A stretch of DNA of 64,000 bases, taken from Paenibacillus sp. FSL R5-0766 (lineage in GTDB: Bacteria; Bacillota; Bacilli; Paenibacillales; Paenibacillaceae). The DNA lies in NCBI RefSeq assembly GCF_037971845.1, contig NZ_CP150227.1, positions 62,001 to 126,000 on the forward strand, given 5' to 3'. The translations under genes were made by a program, and so were the position numbers. The notes beneath the pieces were generated by a model. The model did not search any database. It worked only from the letters and a program-made list of their open reading frames with translations, and had not been told where the DNA came from. Positions 24,073 through 57,316 of the stretch are shown piece after piece (position 1 is the stretch's first letter; every line of letters starts with the position of its first letter).

Positions 24073-28862
<4,790 letters not shown>

Positions 28863-28937
28863 TAGCAAGTTTAATTCGCATGTTTCGTTTCGAATCTAGT
28901 TTTCAGAGAACAACAACTCTGAAATGTAAGCTACGCG

Positions 28938-29054
28938 TTTGGTGGCGATGGCGGAGGGGTTCCACACGTACCCATCCCGAACACGACCGTTAAGCCCTCT
29001 AGCGCCGATGGTACTTGGACCGCAGGGTCCTGGGAGAGTAGGACGCCGCCAAGC
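28938..29054 (+). rRNA. rrf: 5S ribosomal RNA
   Basis: About 117 nt, from TTTGGTGGCGATGGCG to GGACGCCGCCAAGC; the two ends pair to form helix I, and the CCCATCCCGAACACG loop is conserved. It completes a 16S-23S-5S operon. Confidence 0.96.
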
Positions 29055-48358: not shown

Positions 48359-48373
48359 GAGATATTCCCCTTC

Positions 48374-48515
48374 CAATGCCTGCGAGGTTAGCTTAAGGAT
48401 TCGGTTGAAGGTCCCCTATGATCCCTCTGTAGCAAGATCAATTCACCCATAACTGGTTCCCCCGCTTCCCAGGTGCCAGGAATTTGGCTATGCTAGTTAT
48501 GCACCTGCGAAATCA
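48374..48515 (-). promoter_or_regulatory. c-di-AMP riboswitch (ydaO/yuaA class)
   Basis: On the minus strand the conserved blocks occur in order: CCTGGCACCTGGGAAGCGGG, GGGGGAACCA, GGGTGAATTG, and finally CTTCAACCGAATCC with AGCTAACCTCGCAGGC. These are the signature elements of the ydaO RNA, which turns expression off when c-di-AMP is high. It stands directly before the P60 hydrolase. Confidence 0.9.
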
Positions 48516-56606: not shown

Positions 56607-56700
56607 ATTACTAACGTTTATCCCTGTGTCCTCAACTATTCCAGCTTAAGGAACGGACTGGATGATAGAGCCAAAATTATGCTGCCAAACAAACAACGAA

Positions 56701-56737
56701 GTTAAATTTAGTTGAGCTAAATTAACTTAATTTAACT
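56701..56737. promoter_or_regulatory. AT-rich inverted and direct repeats at an opposing promoter
   Basis: GTTAA-ATTTAG and CTAAAT-TAAC form a near-perfect inverted repeat (56701-56726), and a further copy of the half-site (TTAATTTAACTT) overlaps the -35 region. The arrangement looks like a multi-site operator. Confidence 0.4.
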
Positions 56738-56760
56738 TTTATGCAGAGCTGTGCTATACT
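56732..56760 (+). promoter_or_regulatory. promoter of the antisense (antitoxin-like) RNA
   Basis: TTAACT (56732-56737), 17-nt spacer and TATACT (56755-56760) with TGC directly before it (extended -10). No gene follows in this direction before 57317. Confidence 0.65.
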
Positions 56761-56766
56761 GACTAC

Positions 56767-56992
56767 ATAAGTATTCAGTAGTATATTAATTGATATATTA
56801 CATTCGTGAAGTATATGGTGATCGGGTTCGGTCATATACTAAAAAGAGCCTTTACCGCTGCCAACGGTAAAGACTCTTAGGACCCGAAAGGCTGTGGATT
56901 GCCACGGCGTGCATGAACTAAATAATGCTATTCAAGCGAAACCCACCGTCAGGCTTCCGACCTTATGAGGTGGGTTTTCGCTTGCTACGAAA
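56767..56992 (+). ncRNA. putative antisense RNA opposite the small peptide mRNA
   Basis: Predicted RNA from the TTAACT/TATACT promoter. Its first hairpin is AGTATATG (56810-56817) with CATATACT (56833-56840); its likely 3' end is the long hairpin AAGCGAAACCCACC with GGTGGGTTTTCGCTT (about 56935-56984). It would be complementary to the 3' part of the peptide mRNA, including the last 10 or so codons. No convincing coding frame is seen in it (a 21-codon frame at 56815 has no ribosome site). End points are estimates. Confidence 0.45.
56842..56880 (-). terminator. terminator of the small-peptide mRNA
   Basis: On the minus strand AAGAGTCTTTACCG pairs with CGGTAAAGGCTCTT, followed by five T. Confidence 0.8.
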
Positions 56993-57094
56993 CTTTTTGC
57001 GCAACCAACGGTAAAGCTTTCGCCCACTCAGTACAATACTGAGGATCGCAGCAATCCATCGGATTACATCAAGCAACGCTACAAGTTTGACCAT
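56963..57094 (-). CDS. 43-residue membrane peptide, candidate type I toxin
   Basis: Short peptide starting MVKLVALLDVIRWIAA: one hydrophobic helix (about residues 3-23) followed by a strongly basic tail, GRKLYRWLRKKFRSKRK, ending in PTS. ATG at 57094 is set by AAAGGGGGTGA at 5-6 nt; a longer frame to 57154 has no ribosome site. The last codons lie in a stable hairpin and the mRNA continues for about 120 nt to a terminator. A perfect extended -10 promoter lies upstream. The one-helix plus basic-tail form and the opposing RNA are the marks of type I toxins, but the sequence is not a known TxpA, BsrG or Fst family member that I can name. Confidence 0.6.
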   Translation of the reverse strand: MVKLVALLDVIRWIAAILSIVLSGRKLYRWLRKKFRSKRKPTS

Positions 57095-57169
57095 CGACGT
57101 CACCCCCTTTCGGGAAGCTGCGCCGTGGTCTGGAAAACATCCACCGATATTCAAAAGTCCATAACACTA

Positions 57170-57178
57170 ATTATAGCA
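57170..57178 (-). promoter_or_regulatory. extended -10 promoter of the small peptide
   Basis: On the minus strand TGC-TATAAT, a perfect extended -10; the -35 region is poor. The transcript would have a leader of about 70 nt. Confidence 0.6.
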
Positions 57179-57316
57179 CGTATGTTCCCTTGTCTCTACC
57201 ATTTATTTCATGTGTTAGTGTGGACTCTCCTCTTACGCAGATATCGTGCCTTGGTATGACTCTATCTTAATATTTGTGTATAATATGGAAATAGAGGAAG
57301 GGAAAGGTGAATGTGA

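Follow-up and report, generated by a model that had tools for sequence, protein, structure and literature searches.

A so far unnamed candidate type I toxin–antitoxin family in Paenibacillus and Brevibacillus, with competing mRNA structures supported by compensatory changes

A small peptide gene and an antisense unit overlap at their 3′ ends

The stretch of DNA analysed here (the window; 64,000 nucleotides of the soil bacterium Paenibacillus sp. FSL R5-0766) carries on its minus strand an open reading frame (ORF) of 43 codons, with its ATG at 57094-57092 and its stop codon ending at 56963, which encodes the peptide MVKLVALLDVIRWIAAILSIVLSGRKLYRWLRKKFRSKRKPTS (57094-56963) downstream of a strong ribosome site read from the sequence as GGGGGTGA (Table 1). 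Its promoter joins a weak −35 element (TAGAGA, 57198-57193) to the extended −10 element TGC-TATAAT (57178-57170), which most close relatives retain and L036 has lost. Direct reading and scanning of the sequence bore out the extended −10, the ribosome site, the 43-residue ORF and the terminator described in a first-pass annotation. The same annotation credited the peptide with a hydrophobic helix and a basic tail, both of which stand, and with nine basic residues among the last 17, a count that has to be lowered to eight; over residues 25-40, 10 of 16 are basic. Structure prediction from an alignment of 20 sequences returned a single helix spanning residues 2-37 (mean pLDDT 79), and the putative mRNA folded with a z-score of −5.27, beating all 100 shuffles. 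Elsewhere, the window contains a complete rRNA operon (24073-29054, plus strand) and a c-di-AMP riboswitch (48362-48499, minus strand).

On the plus strand, a promoter had been placed at 56732-56760 with no gene behind it. Indeed, no plus-strand ORF of at least 30 amino acids starts between this promoter and 57125, and the two convergent units show the 3′-overlapping layout originally described. The putative antisense RNA folded with a z-score of −5.30, beating all 200 shuffles. Its hairpin end within the last codons of the peptide gene, likewise noted before, is present in the sequence; it is absent from the terminators listed by the scan, because its loop exceeds the limit of the scan and its T tract is interrupted (TTTTCGCTTG). 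Across relatives, 96.6% of cells are paired over the nine pairs of this hairpin, with changes from CG to AU and back. The loop, written on the sense strand, reads GGTTGA or GGTTGG in many relatives and GGTCGG in the window, and is likely to make the first contact with the mRNA. The tail of the peptide reads KPTA, KTHR or KNHR depending on the relative, and the underlying bases (AAACCCACC, or AAAACCACC in the KNHR type) vary little: what is conserved is the nucleotides, whatever the reading frame, which is what the terminator of an antisense RNA would require.

At the level of sequence, the locus therefore holds what characterises a type I pair, a small peptide gene overlapped by an antisense unit, with promoter and hairpin both present and conserved. 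Since the scan reported nine promoter-like sites within 900 bases at the locus as compared to a mean of 2.5 in shuffles, promoters alone are weak evidence, and it is conservation that carries the case.

Table 1. Positions in the window of the genes, signals and pairing segments of the locus
Feature	Position	Strand	Basis
Toxin promoter, TAGAGA-17-TGC-TATAAT, extended −10	57170..57198	−	Read from sequence; promoter scan
Putative toxin mRNA, ~320 nt	56844..57163	−	Start placed from the −10
5′ segment a (TTATGGAC), pairs with a′	57157..57164	−	Alignment, covariation
5′ segment b (GTGGAT), pairs with b′	57139..57144	−	Alignment, covariation
5′ segment c (GACCACGGCG), pairs with start-codon region (H1) or c′	57121..57130	−	Alignment, covariation
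Hairpin H1, GACCACGGCG paired to CGTCGATGGTC; SD enclosed, ATG included	57089..57130	−	Folding, covariation
Peptide ORF, 43 amino acids, one hydrophobic helix and basic tail	56963..57094	−	Sequence, family searches, pN/pS
3′ UTR segment c′ (GCACGCCGTGG)	56902..56912	−	Alignment, covariation
3′ UTR segment b′ (ATCCAC)	56894..56899	−	Alignment, covariation
3′ UTR segment a′ (GTCCTAAG)	56876..56883	−	Alignment, covariation
Toxin mRNA terminator	56844..56878	−	Stem and T run, terminator scan; 45 double changes between standard pairs (rough tree)
Antitoxin promoter, TTAACT-17-TGC-TATACT	56732..56760	+	Sequence, scan; conserved in relatives
Putative antisense RNA (antitoxin), ~220 nt	56767..56985	+	Sequence; covers a′, b′, c′ and the ORF end
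Antisense terminator hairpin, overlaps the last codons	~56936..56981	+	Sequence; arms AAACCCACC/GGTGGGTTT

The peptide belongs to a conserved and partly mobile family

A search with the single peptide sequence gave hits in 49 of the 75 genus genomes, most copies apparently at one chromosomal site, a judgement made from similar contig positions, with flanks checked in part of the genomes. In a sample of 392 genomes from the order, a profile search detected the family in 92, which fall in 14 of 49 genera and carry up to four copies each. The named loci number 34, comprising 29 from Paenibacillus and five from Brevibacillus. Among 58 candidate proteins, 42 belong to the family at E up to 0.1, and the names shown for these 42 include no toxin name. 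Outside the two genera, the family proteins are one from Bacillus horti and one (P0031) filed in the public source under Actinobacillus pleuropneumoniae, a label that is probably due to contamination or mislabelling.

Mobile copies were found on five viral contigs, and the one contig scanned (L104) has neighbours matching tail-tape-measure and virion-structural profiles; one KTHR-type peptide of the family had no counterpart among INPHARED phages. Four Paenibacillus plasmids carry copies among 72,556 plasmid records, and no gene is listed at these matches in a gene table known to be incomplete. One such unlisted copy (L148, 4001-4129) has a hypothetical gene on one side and parA on the other, with parA and repA downstream of it. 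Two loci are tandem, their copies ~710 bases (L109) and ~470 bases (L133) apart. The aligned start position of several distant members (L103, L135, L137, L138, L143 and L144) is CTG instead of ATG, possibly a weak start codon; in the listed peptide translations, the first letter is written M whatever the codon, broken copies included.

The peptide frame is conserved in relatives with a bias toward synonymous change, as the reading of the first-pass annotation requires: pooled pN/pS was 0.24 over 38 near sequences and 0.41 over 57, and by this measure the peptide is under purifying selection.

We found no established identity for the peptide. Scans against Pfam and NCBIfam returned sub-threshold matches to other families only, so that, as far as these two libraries cover them, the peptide was not assigned to TxpA/BsrG, BsrE/BsrH, YonT, Fst or another named type I toxin family. 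PHROGs and PADLOC gave no family name for the peptide locus, and an Rfam covariance search turned up nothing that reached the gathering score, on either strand of the region or at the locus in nine related stretches (four sub-threshold matches, E 1.6-2.9). Membership of a family already described in any of these five libraries was accordingly rejected, as was kinship to a solved structure (best E 0.63). A name for the family was likewise not found in the titles and abstract openings of the open-licence literature searched, which is no proof of its being unpublished. The comparison of sequences strongly supports a type I toxin–antitoxin pair whose family has no name in the libraries searched.

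The opposing promoter is kept with the peptide and can outlive it

To follow the antisense unit across the family, we compared 103 non-identical loci with an open peptide frame, using a home-made promoter score and shuffles. This set excludes nine broken or fragmentary loci (L039, L045, L054, L084, L102, L122, L124, L128 and L139), alternative starts of L018 and L072, and identical repeats, and includes a few open-frame loci with a replaced 5′ or 3′ UTR (L130, L143). The best opposing promoter averaged 16.4, the corresponding means being 13.7 for shuffles and 14.2 for the other strand. At 82 of the 103 loci, at most one of 30 shuffles matched it. The 21 loci at which it did not rise above shuffles are mostly distant, and some may be devoid of the antisense unit; at L143, the 3′ UTR is another sequence.

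Within the genus, all 56 complete peptide loci examined retain the opposing promoter; its loss from most relatives that have the peptide, which would have spoken against an antitoxin, was not seen. Fifty-five of these loci, two of them identical (L049 and L050), score at least 16.2. The 56th (G049:C35:100931, or L200 at 1032-1163) scores 16.1; it is a divergent complete locus with a 44-residue peptide, the promoter TGCTATAAT and a GGTCA/TGACC ribosome-site pairing. The opposing −35 element differs between lineages (TTAACT, TTGAAC, TTGCAT or TTGCCT), so it is a promoter, and more than just a sequence, that is conserved. In a KTHR subgroup that also occurs on viral contigs (L047-L049, L052, L107 and L123), a palindrome of the GGCAAT-NNN-ATTGCC type is spanned by the antitoxin promoter, with mismatches in two members, L047 and L107. 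This palindrome lies downstream of the ORF, its outer part forms the −35 of the antitoxin promoter, and a phage repressor might use it as an operator. This conservation of peptide and opposing promoter, together with that of the RNA structure described below, led us to reject a chance coincidence of promoter and ORF.

When the antisense unit itself served as the query, it was found in 61 of 75 genus genomes. Many of them gave a second match of ~30 bases, which was rejected as an antisense unit: in the two cases inspected, it was a similar terminator-like hairpin, and in the window's own genome (L198, ~1014-1048) this hairpin sits between two genes that by eye resemble zinc transporters. Twenty-four genus genomes have no complete peptide ORF. 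Part of the antisense unit survives in 12 of these; in G071 the peptide gene is broken and the opposing promoter absent, and the searches recovered neither peptide nor antisense unit from the remaining 11. Five of the 12 (G007, G013, G059, G061 and G062) carry the opposing promoter at full strength (score 16.4), as does one site in G018, a genome with complete copies elsewhere. The deletion in these six copies joins a point ~74 to 85 bases upstream of the ATG position with one at about +100, leaving the antisense unit whole in five; the G061 copy has lost part of the 3′ UTR. A different deletion, from about −54 to −63 to +110, is seen in G056, G057, G058 and G066, of which only G066 has a homologous, altered promoter (14.7). 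G006 has a promoter-like site only elsewhere in the stretch (15.0), and the remnants of G042 and G043 have none; in all, five of the 12 remnant genomes are devoid of any promoter-like site. Eight broken copies or fragments, from within the genus and beyond it, were also inspected, and a full-strength promoter was present in L045 alone.

The promoter's presence at 56 of 56 complete loci, set beside five genomes that have no complete peptide gene and retain the unit with a full-strength promoter, is the asymmetry predicted by a toxin and its antitoxin. In the genus, the antisense unit was thus seen to outlive the peptide gene and not the reverse, which is an expectation of such a pair and not its definition. 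Conservation of orphan units slightly exceeds that of the adjoining flanks (0.931 versus 0.896; complete loci, 0.925 versus 0.902), a difference that is not decisive.

Antisense units also occur in other arrangements. In G049 (C35; L054, 779-1526), three antisense units, the third partial, form a tandem array with neither toxin 5′ UTR nor N-terminus, 84-91% identical to the complete locus L017 of that genome, which has complete loci elsewhere. Remnant units lie elsewhere in the genome in L192 (G036:C9), L193 (G054) and L197 (G066:C49), with three in a row in G036, and L192 and L197 have flanking sequence in common.

Two competing pairings of the 5′ UTR are supported by compensatory changes

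For analysis of the mRNA structure, 76 of the 103 loci, picked by shared 8-mers, were aligned. In this alignment, segments a, b and c of the 5′ UTR pair in nested order with c′, b′ and a′ of the 3′ UTR. The resulting open structure, which comprises the long-range helices and both hairpins, has 91.8% of 3172 cells paired as compared to 87.6% in shuffles, and both sides are changed in 25 pairs and 135 cells (shuffled, 15.6 and 40.8; none of 500 as high). Slid partners gave 40-51% pairing, a control that flatters the structure, since the latter was derived from the sequence of the window, itself one of the rows. Hairpin H1, in which segment c pairs instead with the start-codon region and codon 2, has 85.5% of cells paired versus 81.0% in shuffles and 49 double-changed cells versus 14.1 (none of 500 as high); two of its five measures, namely pairs changed on both sides and further pair types, do not rise above shuffles (79 and 91 of 500). 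Segment c and codon 2 covary, as in GACCA/ATGGTC, GTCA/ATGACT, GGCCA/ATGGCC and TGCCA/ATGGCA.

On a rough tree drawn from 110 columns, changes on both sides that lead from one standard pair to another number 8 in helix a, 5 in b, 12 in c-c′, 12 in H1, 8 in the antisense hairpin and 45 in the terminator, and pair-breaking changes 38 (a), 23 (b), 33 (c), 12 (H1), 18 (antisense hairpin) and 43 (terminator). For column 81, which is common to both pairings, a three-way test indicated that the 3′ UTR partner adds nothing beyond the start-region partner (P 0.37). Overall, compensatory changes support both the 5′-3′ helices and H1, and the switch as a structure is well supported by the alignment.

We then folded a set of loci in silico. 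From 21 locus identifiers, L118 being outside the selection and L109 and L133 contributing two copies each, 19 RNAs were folded, L046 and both copies of L133 having no recognised segment c; transcript ends were set by script (267-381 nt), and the probabilities given are the highest of the few pairs tested. H1 formed with a probability of 1.00 in all 19 nascent RNAs and, when the 3′ part was blocked as if bound by antisense RNA, of at least 0.80 in 18 of the 19 (L041, 0.33). Because the script misplaced c′ in L041, L052 and L147, their open-state energies are void, leaving 16 usable loci. In the free full-length RNA of these, the energies of the open and locked states differ by 0.8-6.4 kcal/mol, with the open state winning in eight and the locked state in eight. 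The window belongs to the latter: its full-length fold is locked (c-c′ 0.02), the locked state being 2.7 kcal/mol lower. Predicted access to the ribosome site differed by at least 0.1 between free and blocked RNA in only four of the 16, and in the drawn open structures of the window and L049, the SD is still inside a short local stem.

A model for control of the putative toxin and its alternatives

On these sequence comparisons, the locus is very probably a type I toxin–antitoxin pair with 3′ overlap. The conserved frame, and the opposing promoter kept at every complete locus of the genus, support the earlier suggestion that the plus-strand RNA is the antitoxin; the long-range RNA structure, the competing ribosome-site hairpin and the antitoxin-only remnants are new beyond that annotation.

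In the mechanism we propose, the minus-strand mRNA would encode the toxin, a membrane peptide of 43 residues made up of one helix and a basic tail, and the plus-strand promoter would yield an antisense RNA of ~220 nt covering the ORF end and the whole 3′ UTR. This RNA would bind the 3′ part of the mRNA, probably first at its terminator loop, and the duplex would, by analogy, lead to RNase III cleavage and decay. Segment c would have two alternative partners: the start-codon region, a pairing that hides SD and AUG, and c′, a pairing aided by helices a-a′ and b-b′. A nascent or antisense-bound mRNA would have no free c′, leaving its ribosome site locked, and only the free full-length mRNA would be able to open it. 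We infer the transcripts, toxicity, membrane insertion, decay and translational control by the switch. That the switch controls translation is plausible, and slightly more likely than not.

An account of the txpA/RatA kind would do without a translational switch: the antisense duplex would serve RNase III, and the 5′-3′ pairing would just stabilise the mRNA. We consider it rather unlikely, despite two observations that speak for it, namely that the review PMC6562991 reports no conformational change with RatA or SR5, for all that the 3′ overlap is the same, and that the window's own mRNA is predicted to be locked in every state. Against it, the ribosome-site hairpin and the 5′-3′ helices compete for the same bases, both with compensatory changes, and the bases of codon 2 follow the 5′ UTR. 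Control of the hok/AapA type, with 5′-3′ pairing hiding the SD in the full-length mRNA, appears improbable. PMC6733600 describes such pairing for aapA3, along with transient SD hairpins and compensatory changes, and each nascent RNA folded here is likewise predicted to form a local hairpin that hides its ribosome site; however, the 3′ UTR partner at the present locus is the segment that hides the start codon, not the SD, so that removal of the 3′ end is predicted to lock the ribosome site and not to free it. Finally, a useful, non-toxic small membrane protein under cis antisense RNA control would fit purifying selection and, in most of the genus, the apparently single chromosomal place, but is very improbable, as scattered multi-copy occurrence (up to four per genome), plasmid and viral copies, and antisense-only remnants with no peptide-only locus among 56 in the genus all fit addiction better.

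Returning to the switch, we tentatively suggest that the 3′ UTR is an activator that unlocks the ribosome site and that the antitoxin removes, and that toxin-less alleles are RNA anti-addiction loci. If this were true, translation would be impossible until transcription is complete and would be coupled to the same segment that is the target of the antitoxin, and the antisense-only alleles, in one case a tandem array, would act against plasmids and phages carrying the intact pair. The locus would add a widespread, unnamed type I family of Paenibacillus and Brevibacillus, mobile copies included. A toxin mRNA with two competing, covarying structures makes the question of translation being off during transcription testable, and the antitoxin-only alleles offer a natural test of RNA anti-addiction.

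Comparison with known type I systems

The closest parallels are found in Bacillus subtilis, and according to the review PMC6562991, txpA/bsrG-like systems, which might include the present family, occur in a Paenibacillus species. By that account, the locus resembles bsrG/SR4 in its 3′ overlap, in an SD held in a short stem and in a small toxin, putative here, with a transmembrane domain; the terminator loop of the antisense RNA takes part in the first contact there, and we propose the same here. Binding of SR4 is reported to lengthen the SD stem from 4 to 8 bp. A lengthening of this type in the SD-hiding helix on antisense binding is predicted in silico at the present locus, with compensatory changes in H1, though the helix responsible would be formed by the 5′ UTR together with codons 1-2. 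In apparent contrast to bsrG/SR4, three helices between 5′ UTR and 3′ UTR recur across Paenibacillus and Brevibacillus loci, and the peptide matches no named family profile in the libraries scanned. With txpA/RatA the locus shares, by the same account, a 3′-overlapping convergent pair and an association with mobile elements; it differs in that no conformational change was observed on binding of RatA, and in that the present peptide has no profile match.

Long-distance 5′-3′ pairing and, in aapA3, local SD-hiding hairpins link the locus to hok/Sok and to aapA/IsoA of Helicobacter pylori, as described in PMC6733600. The 5′-3′ pairing is conserved here as well, with a 5′ partner other than the SD: in aapA3 the pairing hides the SD, whereas here it competes with a start-codon-hiding hairpin, so that its predicted sign is opposite. 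Finally, the type I pairs of Clostridioides difficile (RCd8-RCd12 and others), as described in PMC6563280, combine a hydrophobic N-terminus with a lysine-rich C-terminus and reside on prophages and plasmids, a peptide layout and genomic setting that, by description, are similar to those of the family reported here.
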